Shown here piece after piece: positions 13,657 through 33,373 of a stretch of DNA of 64,000 bases (position 1 is its first letter; each line of letters starts with the position of its first letter). The notes beneath the pieces are model-generated. The model did not search any database. It worked only from the letters and a program-made list of their open reading frames with translations, and was not told where the DNA came from. Source of the stretch: Morchella semilibera (lineage: Eukaryota > Ascomycota > Pezizomycetes > Pezizales > Morchellaceae); the NCBI GenBank assembly GCA_009192285.1, contig CM018606.1, positions 672,081-736,080 on the forward strand, given 5' to 3'. The position numbers and the translations under genes are program-made.

Positions 13657-15475
13657 CTATGAATGATAGGTCACAAAACAGGACTGGCAGAGAACATATT
13701 TACAGAGCGAGCAAGAATAGTATGATGTAGGGGCTCGCTTTCGCCTGTGTCCTTCTCTTCTCAACCTCAACCGGCAGCGTTCACACTCTCTTCTCTTACT
13801 AATACGTACTTTGACATGATTTGGGCCGGCAACAGGTAGGGGTAGGTCAGTTATTCCATATGTTAGACTATATCTTAACGCTGTAGTTTTTCTTTCATAC
13901 CAACGGGCCCTAGTCCTAAATACCCCATACTTTTTAAGTAATTGCCCAGCCACTAAAAGACGGAAATTTTTATGGGTAAGCCGTTCACCTGTAGCAAGTC
14001 CGTGAATAAGAAAACTATTTACAACTGTCACGTCCAACAACCAAAAGAAATAGGGCAACCAATTACGCCGTGCTACTAATTGGGTAAAGAAGTAGCTGCG
14101 TAGTTGATCAGCAATATCAACTCCTCCTTTATGGTAGTTGTAATCATCGATAAGTGCTGGAATTGGAATATTCATTTTATGATTATTTCCAAATGCGGGC
14201 CTTAGCAATCGACCACTTGTGCTTGTCAGGCGTGGACGTTTCCGTAGACGAGTAACCTTCTCATTCAAATCATGAACAGTAGATAGGACGTGTACATGAT
14301 TGTTATCTTGCCACTGCATTGCCAGTACTAACCCTTCACTACCGGTAACCACACCTCCAGAAACAGTATTCCAAGGAATATTTTTGTCGGTGTTATCGTA
14401 CTCTTTAGGAAATCGACCTGCCTGTACTCGAGCTGTTCCACATGCACCTATCCCCAGTCTTCGAAGTTTCATAAATAGTTGTACTGTACTGAAAAGATTG
14501 TCCATATAAATAACAAAATTGTGTTGACGATAAGGGAGAGAAGTTTCAGCAAGCTGATAGACAACAGCAGTAGTTGGTGCAGAGATACCAATCGAATTCC
14601 GGTGGGTTTGGGACAGCTCTGCTATACCATTAACTCTGGAATGAAATCGCCAGTTGAGGGTATATCCATGATCGCAGATAGCAAAAAACTTTATATCCTT
14701 CGGTGATTGGTTTATTAGGCATTCGAACTGTATGCTTGCTCCGTCCTCCAAATCTTATCATCATTTCATCGACTGTCACTGATGCTGAAGGAAGATAGTA
14801 CTTCATACAGTTTTCCCGCATCTTAGAACTCAACGGCTCAAGCTTCTCCCACCACTCACCCTCTCCAACCGGTGCAACATGCAAGTATCGCTTGATCTGA
14901 AAGAACCTATTATTTCCCATTGATTTAGATACCGGTCCCTTCCATTCTGGTACATGCAGTCTAACACCAGATCGCTTCCTCCACAAATCTGTAGGTGTTT
15001 TGCATCGATACACTCCCATAGCCATCAAAAGCGCCAGGAAAACCCGCAATTCTTTGGTAGTAACAGGCTTCCACTTCCTTCTAAAAGAATAAACTGAGGT
15101 ATCATGTGCCCCTCGCATATTGGCATAGGCATTGGTATTCTGGGCTAATAATTCTAGTGTCTCGTTGGTCCAAAAAAGCTCAAAGATATCCAGGGGCGAC
15201 TCCGTTCCATCGGGTAGTAATGCTTCTGCCTCATGGAAAATCCTTGACATAGGCTCGTACGCATCTGTGTCGGCACTAGCATATCGAAGGGGTGCTTGTT
15301 GCAGTTCATCTAAAGGGTTCCGGACTGCTGCCATAGTTGAATACTCTGAGGCTTGCGGACCGTAACCAAGTCCAAAGTTTTGTACCCCGCCCTTGAAGAG
15401 GTAGCTGAGGTCGCACTGAGACAACTTCTGAAACAGCTTGGCTGGCAGCACGGACCAGGTCGCGAATTTGACCAT
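13657..15475 (-). pseudogene. piggyBac-family transposase (DDE_Tnp_1_7), one frame break
   Basis: Two overlapping frames, 15475-14630 and 14751-13657, cover a full piggyBac transposase. Conserved blocks appear in order: the N-terminal FELFWTNETLELLAQNTNAY and LRVFLALLMAMGVY; the first catalytic Asp in VTVDEMMIRFGGRSKHT; KPITEGYKVF then AICDHGYT; the second Asp in FVIYMDNLFSTVQLF; the third in KGGVDIADQLRSYF. A C-terminal cysteine-rich zinc-binding domain (CERC, CSLCKYVLC, C) ends it. All three catalytic Asp residues are present. The only visible defect is a one-base shift in an A6 run at 14683-14688 (T6 on the coding strand). This could be a real mutation or a homopolymer sequencing error. 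The enzyme cuts and pastes the element without leaving a footprint, as known for the family. Confidence 0.9.
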
Positions 15476-24007: not shown

Positions 24008-24010
24008 ACT
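24008..24010. repeat. Left target-site duplication ACT
   Basis: ACT directly precedes the CACTA terminus and recurs directly after the other end at 33371-33373. Three bases alone are weak, but they fall exactly at the edges of the inverted ends. Confidence 0.75.
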
Positions 24011-24031
24011 CACTATGGTACATACATTTGG
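24011..24031 (+). repeat. Left terminal inverted repeat of the CACTA-type element
   Basis: CACTATGGTACATACATTTG pairs with the other end over CAC...GGTACATA and TTTG; a few bases differ and the right copy is shorter. Confidence 0.75.
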
Positions 24032-24036
24032 TGGAG

Positions 24037-24560
24037 ACTGTTTAACTTAAACAGTTTTACTGCTTAAACCGCCTAAAAACTGTTTAAATCCTAATTTTAA
24101 ACAGTAAAACTGTTTAAAATCCGGCATTCTGCCCAGAAACTGGTTAAGTACCGGGTTTAAACAGTTCAACTGTTTAAACCCATGTCGCTTGCAAACCTGG
24201 TTAAACAGCCAGACTGTTTAATACGTGCATAAACAGTTTAACTGTTTATGGCTTTCCGCCGCATAGATACGTCCTTTGGTTAAACAGTCAAACTGTTTAA
24301 ATTATTAAAACAGTCGAACTGTCTAATATCGCTTAAACAGTAAAACTGTTTAATTCCTCTCATTGGCTATATATATATATATAAAGCTTCTCATTTAAAC
24401 AGTCACCGCTAAGCAAACAGTAAAACTGTTTAACTTAAACAGTAAAGCTGCTTAAATCATATCTAGTCGGTCATTTAAACAGTAAAACTGCTTAATTGCA
24501 TGTGTCTAGTCGGTTCATTTAAACAGTAAACTGCTTAACTCAAACAGTTACGGTGTTTAA
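24037..24560. repeat. Left subterminal array of TTAAACAGT/ACTGTTTAA palindromes
   Basis: About a dozen interrupted palindromes of the form TTAAACAGT-N2/4-ACTGTTTAA plus half-sites (ACTGCTTAA variants) within 520 bp, many with AAA or similar as centre. In plant CACTA elements, comparable subterminal repeats are bound by the element's TNPA protein; a similar role is inferred here. Confidence 0.9.
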
Positions 24561-24656
24561 TCCACGATTCAGGTTGGCTATATAATATATAGTACACACA
24601 CACAATATAGCACGATTCTATTAACACCAATTGGTTCAATTGCAGTTGATCATGAC

Positions 24657-27600
24657 CTATTCGAAGAGCGCCGTATATCTTCTAACTATATACTCTCTAC
24701 CTTTGTTGTTTAGTATCCCTATTAGCTCGCGGATATCAGCTGCTGGAATTATTCTTATTATCCCTTTCCCTCCGCGGTATCGCAGCCTGCCATCCTTATG
24801 TACCGGGAAATGCCTTATACATGCGAGAAGAAGTTCGCAATCCTTTTTCTTCCTGATAGCCCCTCTTTCTTTTAACTGAATCTGCTCGTCAACTGGCTCC
24901 GCACCCGTGGCTGTTGTATTCCATAGAGCGAGTCTTCTCGTTACTTGCAGATGGCGCCGGATGAAGGCATTCTCCTCTGGATTTGGAATATCCACAGTAA
25001 AAAAGAATAGGACCTCGCCGTATTCAGTTAAAGTTTCTCTTTCCCCATCCCGGAGGTTTCCATTTCGATCCGGTAGAGCTCGTGCCAGTTTAAAGCTTAC
25101 GAATGATGTTGACCGAGTGAGGTTTGACCTCTGTTTTGTTGAAGAAGTCGCTTTAAATGGGTATGGGTCACCACGTTGTACTGTAGTCTTGAAATCTACA
25201 GCTCGGAATACACGACAATGTAATGGAATCTCATAACCATCTGCTGTGGCATCTAACTGAGAATCCTCAGCATCATCGATTGCAAGATCCACATCAAAAT
25301 CTTCGTTTCCCAGGAAGTTACGAAGACATATCCTTTCATATGGCGTCAAGGCCTTTACCTTTGATGGACCACAGAAAGTTATCGTATCTCTCTCGCGCAT
25401 ATCCGATACCACTTTGGCTTCCGGCGGCCTGGAATTTTTTATCCGTTTCGACAAGAACTTCGCCAGCAGGATATTACCATCTGAGTCTTCATCGCTACTC
25501 TCCACCGTTATTCCTTCTTGGTCTATAACGTATACGAGACAGTTCTTTTGTTCCAACATGGTGATCGTGTTGGAGATATTTTTATTCGTCGAAACCCTAG
25601 ACTTTGCCGTTTTAGCCAGTGTCCCGCAGAAACGCTCCATCGCCCATTGCGAGTATGAATACATGGGGCCTGCCCATCGAAGGGCTTGGGGGACATGGAT
25701 TATTTGGTGAAAAACAGGTAGGCAGGCCTTGAGCCGTGTCCATTTCATACGATAGTATCGTCTTTCGTAATAGTCGCTGAACCTCTGGATGCTGACCTCC
25801 AATTGGGTCAGGTCGTCGTCGAGAATGGAGTGATCGCATGTTAGTTGAATAGCCTCTATCAGGTTGACGAATTCAACGTAATCCTCTTCTGGAAGGACCC
25901 CCTTCATGTATACCGGACCTATGATGAACGCAAACAGCTTCCACTCCGCCGCAGTCATCATATTGATGTATTCTAAAAAGTTCTGAGTAGCGGGCCAAAC
26001 AGCTGTGGAAACGTAGATGAACTCGATGCAATATCGGTGCTTATCCGCTCCCATATCTTCAATGGTATGTTGTATGGGTCCTCATTTGCGATAACCTTTG
26101 AATCCCGGCCTCTCGATCTTGCCTGTGCTGGATTTGGTCTAGACGGTGCCCTCGCTCGTCTTGTTATACCAGGGCCACGACCTGCTGGTGTCACTCTATT
26201 TCGCCGAGCTCGAACCTGTATATAAATACACATCATGATTTAGTAAATGATTGATTCTTAGATATAACTCATGTAAGATTGTTGTATATTACCGTTTGTC
26301 TCCCACTCCTTGCAGTGGCTGGAGAACCCCCTTCTTTTACGCCGTCGAGTTCGTTTTCACTCAGCTCGCTGTCAGCATCAGATCCGCCTGGGCTTTCCTC
26401 CTCGCGACCACGATCGATCATGTCAATATCTTCCTCTTCCTCAACATTCGAATCTTGCCCCGATTCCTCTTCTGAATCCTCTTCCGCACCTGCAGATTCC
26501 TCCTCCGGTTCGTCACTGAGCTCCCCCCTGTCTCTCTGCGCTTGATTTCCCGCACCTCGCCGCCGGGGTCCAGCTGGCTCACTTTCACCGACATCACATA
26601 CAAATCTTCCTCTCCAGTGCTTGACGAGATCCGGAATGATGTTCTCGAACCACAAATGCATGCTATCTGGTGGGAAGCTTCGTGGAAAATCAACTGCAGT
26701 CAAGCGGCTTAGAATAGACAGACCTTTGATACCATATTTAGCCTTTTGCTGCACCGTTGCACCTCTTCTCGCGATTTGTTGAGCAACCAGACGAAATTCC
26801 TCGTCTATTCGCATTGGGAGGCTTGTACGGTCCCACGTTTTCCAGGGGTAACCCGAGCCCTTGCGTATTCTAGCCTTCTGTGGGGTGTCTGTCGGCGGAG
26901 TCATTGGGCAATACAGGGACCCGTTCCATACACCCCTGACCATACAATACTCGCAATAGCAATATGAGCGATTCCCCGTTACTTTCATGAGTTTTTCACG
27001 TGCAATCATGTCTGCGGCAACCAGGCATAGATATCCATGAAGAGTGAAGTGTTTTTCAGGCATCCATGATGGTATCGACGCATTCAAAACACCCCGTATC
27101 CCCCGCTCGAGTGCTTCAAGCTCTTTGACCAGAGGGTACAAGAAAGAGTCAATATCCCTTGGTGTTTTGGGACCTGGTATGAACCCTGTGCAAAGCATGT
27201 TTTGTCGTTTCGTTCGAACGGTGGGTGGAAGATTGAGGCACAAAAGAGCAATCGGCCAAATAGAGAATTTCGCCCTTGACTGAAATATCTGAACCCCATC
27301 GGTAGTTAATACGAATCCCAGGTCCGTTTTCTGCTGGAATAGGCGTTTAGCCTTCATGTCTCGGTAAAGATCACCAGTCCAAAAGTCGGAGGTAACACCT
27401 TCTTGTGATTCGGCTTGGTCCCGATAAGCTATCAACCAACTTGCACGTACTGGATCTGCATACCAAAGCCTGAGACGGTGCTCTATGGGTATATAGTCGT
27501 ATGTAGCGTAAGGCTCTTTCCTGGCACCTATACCAACCTTCCATCTGGGGTGTTGACAGTAATCGCATTGCCGCTTATCTGGATACAGCGCATAAGACAT

Positions 27601-29319
27601 GCATGACGACTTACAGCAATCAATGCTTATCGATTCCACGCCGGTCTTGTTTTGAATCCATTTCTTCGTAGTTCGGTAATCCCAGCACGACCGGTGGTCG
27701 ACATTCTCGACTGAATCAGTGAAGGATATATTGTTGATCAATGACGTCATATCGCTTGCCGATGCCCTGGACAGCTTATGTGTAAGTTTTATGTCATGTA
27801 TTGCCACCGATAGCAGCTCAGTTTTTGACATTGCCGTTTTTCTCACACCATATGGAAAACCGCCCTCTTCGTCGTCTGTAGTACTGGATTCCACAGATCT
27901 AGAATCTGCGCCAGGGTTTGCTCTATCCAACCGTCCCTCACTAGTACTGCTAGCAACACTATCGCGGCCTGGCATATCCTCATCTGAACTGGATAAAAGA
28001 TCGGAATATATGTCATACTCAAACTGTGGCTCCGCAACAAATCCCCTCCTCATTAGGCCTGCAGCTGCACCAACAACATCTTCATCATTATTCTCCTCAT
28101 CGCTATTAACCCCACTTTCGACCAATACCTCTTCGTATCCGTCCGAAGTCGATTGGTCGTCACTACCGTCATGATTGATGATGTGGGCGTTTTCTGAAGC
28201 CATATCTATATCAGAACTACCCTGTATATGTCGCATAGCCCCACTATCTTGCGATTCGTAAGGTAGACTATCCATCTCAATATCTGACTCTTCCGCCATG
28301 CCAGGGCTGATTTGGTCGTTTTCGTTGTTTGCTGCAGGTGAATCAGCTGCTTCGGATCCTGGATGCTGCACGTATGGCAATATTGGAGGGGGGCTCGAGG
28401 CTATAATATTCTCATCATCGGAACTATCGGCTGCATCCGCCGGGATATGCTCATGCCTGTTCTCGAAATGTTCCTTTTGATACCGGCGCGGGGTCACTCG
28501 GGGCTTTCGAGCTGGCAGTTCCGGCGGTTCTTCGTCCACATCTAGATCATCCTCGGGCTGGTCTGCAGCTGGTTCATCAGAAGACATCATGTCTCCCCAA
28601 GCAACACTTTCAGACTGATGATGGCTTGTTTGGTCATTCAGCTCCGTGTTAACATGATCTATTAATCTAGGTACAGCGCGACGTCGTCTTCTTGCAGGAA
28701 ATTCCGGGGCATCAAATTCATGATCAACTCCGACCAGGCCCCCACCCACGCCACCCATGTAGCCCGGTCCAATATGTCTTGGAGATCGCAAAGATGAATC
28801 GTGGGGTGAAATGGCTCTGGGTTCTGACATCGCCGGTCGGGCATATATGGCTGGCCTTCGGGTTCGAACTGTTCGGGGTGTTCTAGCGGGTATAATGGCC
28901 TGTAGCTCATCATCCTCGTCCGACTTATCCCCCTGCACCCCAAGCTGATCATCGTTATCTCCAGAGCTTGCACCATCGTCATCCAGCTGTTGGTCGCGAA
29001 TGTGTCTTCGGTTTGGGGCCCTTTGGGACGGTTTGGATCGAGGTCTCCTGGCAGGCAAATCTGGACGTTGTAGCTCTGTAGTCTCTCTTGTCGCATCTCT
29101 TGCCCGTGAACCCATATCAACATTCCCCTCGAGCTCCTGATCATCGACTCCGCTTGAGTTTTCGATTTCGTCATCGTCCCCACGCGGCGAAAATAACTGA
29201 TCCAACCTGTCTTGCTCTTGCGCCTGCAAGTGCATGTGCCATTCTGATAACTTCGTGACCGGATGTGGACGGATGTCGAGCAGCGAGCAGCTACAAACGC
29301 GGTAGAAACCAGCAGGCAT
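24657..29319 (-). pseudogene. Plavaka-like (Tnp2/CACTA) transposase, one frame break
   Basis: Exon 1 is 29319-26293 (1,009 codons) and exon 2 starts at 26215 after a 77-bp intron. The N-terminal 450 residues are acidic and disordered (many D, E and S). A Cys cluster (CCKSSC, CDYCQHPRW) precedes the catalytic core. The core blocks are LTTDGVQIF, WPIALLCLNLPP, GFIPGPKTPRDIDSFLYPLV, a CEYC knuckle, PPDSMHLWFENI and, after the intron, WAMERFCGTLAK. These match the Tnp2-type CMC transposases called Plavaka in fungi, including the DG..iF strand of the RNase H fold. Exon 2 changes frame at an A5 run (25975-25979), between PQLFGPLLRTF and LEYINMMTAAEWK. All else is open to the TAG at 24657-24659. The product would excise and reinsert the element; activity is doubtful if the shift is real. 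Confidence 0.87.
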
Positions 29320-29848
29320 TTCTCTTTTGATGAGTTAGGTAGAGTTGAGAAGAAAAAAAAACTGGGGGTCTTGCGCCAAGAAAAAAATTTCGTTTCTTGG
29401 GGGGGGGGTGTTGAAGCAAAATCGTGGTGGTGTCTATATCTTATGTGTGGAAGTGTAAATATGTGGAAGTGCAAATAGACGAGCGAAGTGCAAAAGACGA
29501 GTGACCTTGTATGTGTTAGGCAGCTTAGAGCTGTGTGCAACTCCTACCATCACATGACTTTGATACATCTTATCTGATGGATAGCACCAAAACGGCTAAA
29601 CTAAGCTTTATCGGATAAGATCAAGACAAGATATGCCTATCGTGGCACGCTAACTGATTAATTGGGTATAGTCTAAGAAAATTTTCTCCTTTCGCTTGGC
29701 TATCAACAATCTCAGCTCATCCAACACCCCCCCATTAACACCCCCCCCCCAACACTACGGCCACTTTCATCCATCATTCTCACTATCATCCCCCCCCCTC
29801 TCTTTCAAACAGATACACTCAGTCGGTCCCGTACGCGCAATCCCACCG
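29320..29848. promoter_or_regulatory. Divergent promoter region between the two transposon genes
   Basis: 529 bp between the divergent start codons. It contains a G9-10 run near 29400, a C-rich tract near 29740-29800 and several GATA/TATC motifs near 29565-29640. The subterminal palindrome is not present here, so that motif is confined to the ends. Confidence 0.5.
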
Positions 29849-32635
29849 ATGTCTCCCAGTGTACAAGAGATCTTGCAGGCGAAGAAGGAGGAACTGATGA
29901 GGCAGATGCGCGATCTGGAGGAGAAAATGGCTGCAGAGGAAGCTATGCTCACACAGAGCCTGGAAAGAGAACAGGAAGTACCCGAGCACGCGGTCGAGGG
30001 CAAAGGTTCTGATGAAAGCAGTACAGAACAGGCTGGTAAGCTGATCCATCACCATTCTTCTCCATCTAATTATCGGACCGGTAGGCGGCGGTACGGGTAT
30101 AGTCATGAAAGTTACTAATGTTCCTATATGCATCTTAGCCAAGGGAAAGTCCAAAGCTCCTGTTTTGCACCAACGAACGATGACAGGCAGGGGAATACTT
30201 TCACCAGTCGGAGTATATACCACCCCCGGCTCCGAGATTAGCGAAGCAGACTCAGATCAGATAAGCCCCAGCGTTCGAGCTCAAATCATTGCGGAAAAAA
30301 GGAAGAGCCAGAAAATGCCGGTCCGGTTTAGTGAGCCTGAAGGTGGACAATCTCAAGGTCTGAGCTCCAACAAATCCGTGGCAGCCATCAGCTCGAAACA
30401 TTCGACGATTGCAAGGCAAGGCGGGGCACCGTTACAACCGGCTAAGTCATCCTCCGCGTCGTCGTCAAAAACTCTACCCCGAAAGTCAGCCTCAATCGTA
30501 CACGACCATGACACCGACGAAACGAGAGAAGAATCGCCAGACCCCAGCGAAAACATCCCAGATGAAGAGGGAGTTGACGTCGATGATGTGGATATGGGTA
30601 TGGACACTGGTGAAGAACTGCGACCAAACTCCAAGGCTTTTCGGCGATCCCTCAACATTCGGATGGGCGTGATGATTGAAGGAACAGATAATATTGATAG
30701 GAAAAAATTGAGGCTACGGCGGCAATGGGTGTTGGAGGAGTGTCTGGCCAAGGGCATACGTTTGGACACTTCTTTCAATTCTTATCCCTATGAGACGAAG
30801 ATGTGGCCTATGATCAAGTATATTGCAATAACCGCCCCCAGGGAATGGGGCTGGGACCGCATGTTGGCCAAGGATGTGATTCGAACGATGTGCTGGGATC
30901 GGGGACGCAACAAAAGGAATCGAGCACTCAGAGCAGCTGGCGTTCCCCCGGATCCCACAAAAGCTCGCAGAAAACGGCTCCCTCCCACGACAGCCGATGA
31001 TAGTGGTGGCTCGGGCAAACACGATAGTAGCCAAAGAGTCGAGACGGCTATGGAGGCCAATGGAGAAGCGGATGAAGGCCATATGTCCACACGAAGATCG
31101 ACTGCCCCAACCAGCACAACAATAACACCACCGCCACAGCGATCACGTACAACGAATGCCCAAAACAAAGACAACCGCGGAGTTCAACAACCGGTGGTGC
31201 TGACAGCGCCAGCGGGTGGTCGAAACCAGGCAAGTAAAGTTAGCAAAGTCCCAACTGCTGCCACTAAATCCAAACCCCCTACAAACAAACGGCCGCAGGT
31301 CAGTGGTGGCACTGAAGGTCCAAAAACTAGCGCTCCCGTGGCCGTACCGATCAGCAAACTTGTTCGTGGTCGTATGCAAGTTCAAAGCCCCCCTTCCCCG
31401 CAATTTGAGTCCAGCCCCCTCGTCCCCCCTGCCCGCACCCCCGTTCATTTGCATAAATTCAGGCAGCCCAAATTAACAGCACTGGAAACTATCGGGCATG
31501 CGGCAAAAGATAAAGCTGATACAGACGAGGAGAAGGATGTCTTCCAGGTGTTCATGGGCAAAAGGGTTTTCCGTTTTGCCACCGACATAGAATGGGACGA
31601 GTTTGAACTTGAAATTCAAAGTCGTGTTGCTTTAGAGGCTGATGAGTCTATGTTTTACCGGGCGCGTGGTGGCGTGATAAAGAGTGGAAGCCTCTTGCCT
31701 ATCCTGTCGAGTTGGAAAGGATGATAGAACAATACGCTCACTGCGGGGCAGAAATTTGTATCAAGGAAGCGGTAAGTCTATATGCCCTGATTATATACTC
31801 CTAGGTTAATCATGTCAGCTGTTTGCTAACTTTGGTGTTGCTGACTATACAGCGAGCGTTTATAGAAGAGGAGGAGGAGGAGGAAGAGGGTGCTCCTGTT
31901 AGGAATAGAAAGAATTCACTGGTTTGGCGATGACCCCCGGCCTATAGATATAATTTATGGTAAGAATTTTTTCTTATACGGAGAACTAACGATATCGGTG
32001 CTATGCCATAGCCTGCTGGAGAGCCTGGAGAACCTGACCTTGTGATTGGAGGGCAGGACATTAATAATCATTCCGAGATAACACAAACTCTCGTCCCAAA
32101 CACCCCGAATGATTACGAAAAGGGCAAGTTGCTAAGTAGTACGGGATTGATAAGCCCACCTGATTCGAACAAGGACTCGGCTTCACCGGAAGGCTTAGCT
32201 ATAGGGATGATCAGCGAAAGTACTAAACCATGCAAAAGAAAATTCCCGCATCCTGAACATGCCCATCTGCCATCACCGGAGCCATCTCAAGTACCGGATT
32301 CACAAATCCCCACTACACAGGCAGTTGTTTCGCCTATCGTGAAGAGAAAACGGGGCCGCCCGAGAAAAAATGAGAGTATTCAGGAGTCACAACTGCCTGC
32401 CTCGCAGACTGCAGATCAATTGGAAGAGGATATCAACAAACGCAAATCAACCAGGAAGATTACCAAAAGTATGAAAGTTTTGGATAACGGAGAGACCCAG
32501 AAAATTACCGGTGATGCTAACAAATTGAAATGTGCGAAGAATAAATGGAAAGAAGAGTGGGTTGGGTTTGAAACACGCAATCCACCAGCGTATTTAATTG
32601 CACGTGGAACGGCGGAGGGTGAGCCCGGGAGATAA
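29849..32635 (+). CDS. CACTA-element accessory gene, coiled coil plus AT-hook (TnpA-like role inferred)
   Basis: Exon 1 is 29849-30035 (ATG at 29849; MSPSVQEILQAKKEELMRQM opens a coiled coil of about 40 residues). Exon 2 starts at 30139 and is open to 31724 (SEISEADSDQIS, a basic centre RRQWVLEECLAKGIRLD). Later exons follow near 31.7-32.0 kb and a last open stretch of about 200 residues ends with TAG-like closure at 32635. The last part has an AT-hook, KRKRGRPRKN, and ends EEWVGFETRNPPAYLIARG. No known family was recognised. Frame agreement between about 31,655 and 32,040 is unclear: RDKEWKPLAYPVELERMIEQ and RIHWFGDDPRPIDIIY lie in frames that do not join simply, so extra introns or one or two indels must be assumed. 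A DNA-binding function on the subterminal palindromes is inferred from the AT-hook and from CACTA biology. Confidence 0.65.
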
Positions 32636-32894
32636 TAGGTAACTGTCCTCTTCATATATATAACTTGCATGGGTGTGGTCGGTCTGATGTGTAATTTTCA
32701 GATATGCTCAACAATACCACGTTACATTACCAACCGATACACTTTTCCAGCTGCAACACGTTACGATTGATCTATATACAAGAGCTGCGAGAGGGTGATA
32801 GGTATATTAGATACATGTAGGGAAGATTAACTGTATCGTATACCATAGTCACCGGTTGCAATTGAATAGCTACTGCGCAATATGCTACTAAAAT

Positions 32895-33353
32895 ACTGTT
32901 TAAAATACTGTTTAAATTAAACAGCTATAGATAACGTAAAACTGTTTAAACTAAACTGCTTAAATTAAACTGCTTAAATTAAACAGTCGTAAACTGTTTA
33001 AACCATGAGTCATAGGTCGTTAAAAAAACTGTTTAAATAAAACAGTTAATGAAAACAGTTTTACTGTTTTACTTAAACAACTTATCTAAAACAGTTTTAC
33101 TGTTTTACTTAAACAACTTATCTTAAACAGTTTACTGTTTTACTTAAACAACTTATCTTAAAACAGTTTTACTGTTTTAATTAAACAACTTATCTAAACA
33201 GTTCGGGTGTTTAATTTAAACAGTTTCACACACCGCCCATAGCAACGAAATTTAAACAGTTTCCAAACAGTTTTCACGCAGTTTTCAAACAGTTTTCTAA
33301 ACAGTTTACTGTTTAAACCACTAAACAGTTTAACTGTTTAGACTTAAACAGTC
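32895..33353. repeat. Right subterminal array of the same palindrome
   Basis: The same TTTAAACAGT/ACTGTTTAA units as the left array over about 460 bp, including a block where a unit of about 36 bp is repeated four times (33053-33205). Confidence 0.9.
33053..33205. repeat. Tandem repeat, about 36 bp x 4, inside the right array
   Basis: Each unit carries AAAACAGTTTTACTGTTTTA followed by an A/T-rich linker ending AACAACTTATCT; copies differ by one or two bases. It looks like recent local expansion of binding-site units. Confidence 0.85.
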
Positions 33354-33370
33354 AAATATGTACCTCGGTG
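33353..33370 (-). repeat. Right terminal inverted repeat of the CACTA-type element
   Basis: Read inward: CACCGAGGTACATATTTG. Followed directly inward by the first ACTGTTTAA half-site, as on the left. Confidence 0.75.
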
Positions 33371-33373
33371 ACT
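33371..33373. repeat. Right target-site duplication ACT
   Basis: Partner of the ACT at 24008-24010. Confidence 0.75.

Follow-up and report, generated by a model that had tools for sequence, protein, structure and literature searches.

A 64,000-nucleotide stretch of the Morchella semilibera genome (GenBank assembly GCA_009192285.1, contig CM018606.1, positions 672,081–736,080 of the forward strand; hereafter the window) carries a complete transposable element with precise borders at 24011–33370. The element contains a Tnp2-type transposase gene, a divergent second gene (gene 2) and dense arrays of short palindromes inside both ends. Its features are listed below in window coordinates; positions elsewhere in the genome carry a contig label (C1, C4 and so on).

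24008–24010, no strand: left target duplication ACT (AGG and ACT at the other sites)
24011–24024, + strand: left terminal inverted repeat CACTATGGTACATA, in 4/4 copies
24037–24548, no strand: left array, 22 AAACAGT/ACTGTTT motifs, 6 close palindromes
24657–26215, − strand: transposase exon 2, with HxxxH and the final E; DUF4218 matched weakly, below cut-off
26216–26292, − strand: transposase intron, 77 nt (GTAATA...CAG), predicted from sequence
26293–29319, − strand: transposase exon 1, first D, second D and CxxC; Pfam Transposase_21 (tnp2), E = 6e-14
29320–29848, no strand: intergenic stretch between the divergent genes, presumably with both promoters
29849–30035, + strand: gene 2 exon 1, start and splice sites predicted
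30139–31771, + strand: gene 2 exon 2
30642–30944, + strand: gene 2 conserved domain, ~100 amino acids (aa), kept in two relatives
31853–31959, + strand: gene 2 exon 3, protein end in the simplest model
32012–32635, + strand: open frame with an AT hook (about 32342–32374; AT_hook 18.2 bits, cut-off 17.4)
32895–33352, no strand: right array, 25 AAACAGT/ACTGTTT motifs, 7 close palindromes
33357–33370, − strand: right terminal inverted repeat CACCGAGGTACATA, in 4/4 copies
33371–33373, no strand: right target duplication ACT

The borders were defined by comparing copies within the same genome (56.8 Mb, 23 contigs). Searches with the terminal 601 bp (left) and 621 bp (right) of the element recovered the same four full-length copies, 9,360 or 9,361 bp long with identical ends: the window copy (C4:696091), an inverted second copy on the same contig (C4:2662804–2672164), C21:1480750 and C22:1482440. 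The remaining rows were weak reverse matches within these copies and one relic on C16, and no deletion derivatives (short non-autonomous copies) were found genome-wide with the two end queries. All four copies run from CAC to GTG, with CACTA at the left tip and CACCG at the right, and CACTATGGTACATA is identical to the inverted CACCGAGGTACATA at 11 of 14 positions. Each copy is flanked by a perfect 3-bp target duplication (ACT, ACT, AGG on C21 and AGG on C22). The C21 and C22 flanks are nearly identical (left flanks without a difference over 1500 columns, right flanks with 10 over 1505), indicating one insertion on paired contigs and leaving three independent sites. Every one of these three has its own duplication (ACT, AGG, ACT), for which chance gives p ~4e-6 assuming equal base frequencies. 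Their 100-bp flanks agree at 20–28 of 100 positions, the level of unrelated DNA, so homology ends at the element borders. The first-pass annotation had reported the CACTA and CACCG inverted ends, an ACT at both edges and a complete element between them; it asked for several copies that share these ends and are individually flanked by a 3-bp duplication, and named homology beyond 24011 or 33370 as the sign of wrong borders. Four such copies at three sites now bear out this description, and the unrelated flanks contradict any continuation of homology.

The transposase gene is encoded on the reverse strand. Exon 1 matches Transposase_21 at 52.2 bits (cut-off 28.6) and gave no match among PDB sequences or in NCBIfam; together with the opposite strands of the two genes, this match upholds the earlier description of a Tnp2-type transposase divergent from a second gene. 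In the C21 copy, exons 1 and 2 read as one 1,528-aa transposase across the putative intron. Exon 1 is interrupted in the C22 copy and open in the other three; exon 2 is open in all but the window copy, where it is broken once, upstream of HxxxH and E. The first D is residue 672 and is preceded by a long N-terminal part. Catalytic residues, assigned by motif order and not by structure, follow the order D-D-C(2)C-H(3-4)H-E of EnSpm and its relatives (PMC12730594). A tblastn search of the genome with exon 1 gave 58 matches (best 45 of 56 candidates scored); among these, 19 distinct places remain besides the four copies once pieces and C21/C22 pairs are merged. Motifs were compared at 13 of these diverged places, using the best piece where pieces overlapped. 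All 13 relatives retain xDGV with the first D, AD with the second D, and CxxC, with a weaker overlapping piece lacking the motif at three loci; HxxxH and the last E are present in all 11 relatives whose sequence extends over exon 2 (it does not in L035 and L038).

The CAC..GTG ends, the 3-bp duplication and the D, D, CxxC, HxxxH and E motifs together place the element among CACTA/EnSpm transposons, and Transposase_21, the motif order and the subterminal arrays are likewise features of this class. PIF/Harbinger elements also have two genes and 3-bp duplications; no Harbinger model was matched up to E = 5 in Pfam, tnp2 being matched instead. For fungal EnSpm families, CAC..GTG ends and 3-bp duplications have been described (PMC12730594).

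The subterminal arrays are confined to the two ends. AAACAGT/ACTGTTT occurs 22 times in 24011–24660, not once in the intervening 8.2 kb (24661–32850), 25 times in 32851–33370 and only 4 times across the other 54.6 kb of the window. In 200 dinucleotide shuffles per end the motif averaged 0.4 and 0.7 occurrences with a maximum of 4, so the palindrome arrays noted in the first pass stand. Close palindromes were counted as AAACAGT-n-ACTGTTT, allowing a spacer of up to 5 bp, and the longest perfect inverted repeat of the left array spans 24153–24181.

Gene 2 encodes a protein of 633 aa in the C21 copy under the simplest, three-exon model; the frame at 32012–32635 may be a further exon reached through other splice sites, or a separate gene. 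Exon 2 reads without interruption on C21 and C22; the window copy and the second C4 copy each carry a single break in it, at different positions. Pfam scans of gene 2 covered exon 2 and the last open frame: exon 2 of the C21 copy had no match in Pfam, TET/JBP included, or in NCBIfam, and the last frame of the window copy yielded an AT hook only. Against PDB sequences gene 2 gave one chance-level match (E = 1.3). Its conserved domain recurs in two relatives at 39% identity over 160 columns and 48% over 100 columns. No published description of the partner gene was recognised in the literature searched, which covered few subscription journals and no Repbase; within that literature, it appears to be an undescribed partner of a known kind of element.

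We then compared the distribution of gene 2 with the transposase phylogeny. A tblastn search of the genome with gene 2 gave 22 matches at E up to 0.1; minus six rows from the four copies, and with pieces and C21/C22 pairs merged, these correspond to eight places, six of which have a Tnp2 match within 5 kb. At four of them (C1:4.28 Mb, C21:0.858 Mb, C21:1.248 Mb and C1:5.306 Mb) the gene-2 relative stands head-to-head with Tnp2. A tree of 14 catalytic-domain rows, one for the element and 13 for its relatives, places it in a group with four of them at a support of 1.000; these are exactly the four head-to-head loci, with transposases 55–63% identical to that of the element. All four nearest relatives thus carry a gene-2 relative head-to-head within 5 kb of the transposase, which makes the divergent pair an old and stable feature of the clade in this genome. 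Judged from these sequence comparisons, gene 2 is a conserved part of this transposase clade.

The ends of the four relatives were sought with a shortened end pattern, CACYRNGGTACA, chosen after the end of one relative (L081) had been read. The pattern occurs 109 times genome-wide, compared with 60 for a reversed control, and the matches listed, in contig order, extend over the parts of C1 and C21 concerned. In 4/4 relatives it lies in the correct orientation at most 3 kb from the coding parts, at one end each (0.02 expected in total), and the match at C21:0.865 Mb is L081's own, read before the pattern was chosen, and gives no independent test. C1 has two further candidates at a distance of ~8 kb (0.09 expected up to 12 kb), bringing the candidate ends to C1:4268625, C1:4283839, C1:5294622, C1:5309742, C21:864978 and C21:1251161. 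The L081 tip reads CACCGCGGTACA and is followed by 538 bp rich in ACACA[GC]T...TGTGT palindromes, with 11 ACACA[GC]T half-sites inside and 0 in the 162 bp outside. L081 thus retains the terminal core and has palindromes of its own, indicating that the array motif changed in this relative.

One of the two candidates ~8 kb out lies behind the end of a Ty3-like retrotransposon (L078, C1:4273600–4275500), found just past the transposase of the C1:4.277 Mb relative. Its integrase- and chromodomain-like character was recognised only by eye, and it is seemingly nested in that relative.

Traces of the ends were also seen elsewhere. The C16 relic (C16:609763–610163; L013, L014) is a diverged right end, at 82% and 74%, in which an AAACAGT-type array can still be recognised and a few extra bases split the terminal core; it perhaps represents an older wave of the family. 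The 14-bp end pattern occurs at 24 places genome-wide and its reversed control at 6. Eight of the 24 are the termini of the four copies; around the remaining 16, no more than one AAACAGT lies within 700 bp, and they have no comparable array. Some CACYRNGGTACATA sites (L054 and L071/L074) have AACCCTAA-like repeats within 600 bp, which may be telomere-like or due to chance.

Taken as a whole, the element is very likely a full-length, low-copy and recently mobile CACTA/EnSpm cut-and-paste DNA transposon with gene 2 as a conserved partner of the transposase. In the proposed mechanism, the transposase would cut at the CAC ends, while the gene-2 protein would bind the AAACAGT/ACTGTTT arrays and, by analogy with En/Spm TnpA, bring the two ends together for the transposase; it may also regulate the element, as TnpA does in maize En/Spm. 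TnpA recognises subterminal repeats and is needed together with TnpD (PMC2613891). That gene 2 encodes such a TnpA-like binder of subterminal repeats is, on balance, the reading we consider probable.

Several observations weigh against this account. The right end of the element is CACCG instead of CACTA. In the transposase, the DUF4218 match of exon 2 is weak (E = 0.024) and below cut-off, as are the DUF1258 and Furin-like matches of exon 1. No empty site was found in a genome-wide search with the left flanks of the three sites, the right flanks not having been searched. Full-length left-flank matches were solely to the sites themselves and to the C21/C22 pair, both filled; the others (2 of 4 rows in one case, and 41 of 42 rows in another, where the best 40 of 87 candidates were scored) are short dispersed repeats that stop before the insertion point. 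DNA binding by gene 2 is argued from position, conservation and one marginal AT hook, which sits in an exon whose joining to gene 2 varies by model, and a single-sequence fold of the conserved domain reached a mean predicted local distance difference test (pLDDT) score of only 45. Two gene-2 relatives are arranged in tandem (C1:5.526 Mb, E = 4.5e-8; C3:2.912 Mb, E = 0.057 and not significant alone), and two gene-2 places on C17 have no Tnp2 match near them. Of the eight ends expected for the relatives, two lack a core match.

The alternative that survives best concerns the division of labour: the N-terminal part of the transposase would bind the subterminal repeats, and gene 2 would act on silencing or expression. 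The length of the region ahead of the first D fits such a role, and fungal transposons with an anti-silencing enzyme (TET/JBP) have been published (PMC12730594). Exon 2 of gene 2 matches neither TET/JBP nor any other Pfam family, and the TnpA analogy and the AT hook favour DNA binding; nothing speaks directly against this alternative, which we regard as unlikely but worth keeping in sight. A passenger origin, in which gene 2 is a host gene captured by chance and stands outside the mobility machinery, would account for the lack of any recognised domain apart from the marginal AT hook. It is rendered improbable by the persistence of the head-to-head pair in all four clade members despite 55–63% transposase identity, and by the proximity of Tnp2 (at most 5 kb) at six of the eight outside places.

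Membership in Plavaka, a CACTA-related fungal group, is very improbable. Plavaka is plentiful in this genome (PF18759 gave 128 matches, from the best 123 of 153 candidates scored), belongs to a related catalytic clade and shares CxxC and HxxxH with EnSpm (PMC12730594). It is, however, a different Pfam family: neither transposase exon matched Plavaka at E up to 5, and the 128 listed matches all fall outside the four copies. Published termini also differ from the CAC..GTG seen here, PlavakaA having TGT..ACA ends with 2-bp duplications and PlavakaB CATCA..TGATG ends with duplications of 2 or 3 bp (PMC12730594). On the Pfam scans of both exons, the genome-wide PF18759 matches and the end sequences, Plavaka membership was rejected, and the label "Plavaka-like" given in the first pass falls. 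Least probable of all is that the four copies reflect assembly duplication rather than transposition, which holds for the C21/C22 pair with its common flanks and is refuted for the three sites by the unrelated flanks and separate target duplications of the other two copies.

Among the PF18759 matches themselves, at least five share one score, each with one in-frame TAG, which hints at a recently spread Plavaka family.

Returning to gene 2 as a binder of subterminal repeats, a broader and more tentative proposal, to which we give slightly less than even chances, is that it founds a new transposon-encoded DNA-binding family, the fixed partner of one CACTA clade, whose specificity shifts with the arrays while the core CAC[CT]RNGGTACA stays fixed. 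If so, a conserved cutting code (the terminal core) would be split from a fast-changing recognition code (the arrays), the latter being AAACAGT here and ACACA[GC]T in L081, the one relative with an end sequence to compare.

Comparison with known systems places these features in context. The element's structure alone is not novel: fungal EnSpm and Plavaka families have been published in complete form, ends and duplications included (PMC12730594), so the earlier remark that full structures are rarely described was only partly right. The fungal EnSpm/CACTA elements of that work (Kojima 2025) share CAC..GTG ends, 3-bp duplications and a CxxC and HxxxH transposase with ours; as described there, they carry a TET/JBP dioxygenase, whereas the partner here is a different, unrecognised protein. 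Maize En/Spm, an 8.3 kb element, and plant CACTA elements likewise combine a tnp2 transposase, subterminal repeats and two proteins (TnpD/Tnp2 and TnpA), both spliced in En/Spm from one transcription unit in contrast to the two divergent genes here (PMC2613891, PMC1636069). SmTRC1 and the animal and fungal TRC elements share the Transposase_21 domain, with fungal relatives reported, yet SmTRC1 has CCC ends and a 2-bp duplication (7/14 copies), and TRC ends were definable by the authors in three animal species only (DeMarco 2006, PMC1636069). The element also differs from En/Spm in its partner protein and in its CACCG right end. En/Spm itself has CACTA ends and a 3-bp duplication, and its subterminal motif differs from AAACAGT/ACTGTTT. 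The present family combines proven ends and duplications with very young copies, one of them with both genes open, and adds a partner gene conserved across diverged relatives in the same genome, at least one of which has a different array. It thereby makes testable whether fungal CACTA elements employ a binder of the TnpA type, and whether such a binder changes in step with the repeats.

The copies differ pairwise by 3–8 substitutions and 1–18 indel events in ~9.36 kb (5 substitutions and 1 indel between the C21 and second C4 copies), so the family, which is low-copy, moved recently. Many single-base indels stem from the C22 copy, which shows 13 indel events relative to the near-identical C21 copy and looks like a case of assembly noise. 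In the window copy, the transposase gene and gene 2 each carry a single frame break that their C21 counterparts lack. This copy would need proteins from another one, unless the breaks are assembly errors, as they may be. The suggestion that it serve as type element of a new family is reasonable as far as the family goes; another copy would make a better type than the window copy, whose frames are broken.

The same features recur at nearly the same coordinates on the contig pairs C21/C22, C12/C13 and C9/C10, as if both haplotypes of some chromosomes had been kept in the assembly. Elsewhere in the window, a piggyBac-type transposase (DDE_Tnp_1_7, E = 3.8e-25 and 3.5e-33) lies at 13657–15475 on the reverse strand in two overlapping frames and is probably a broken copy.

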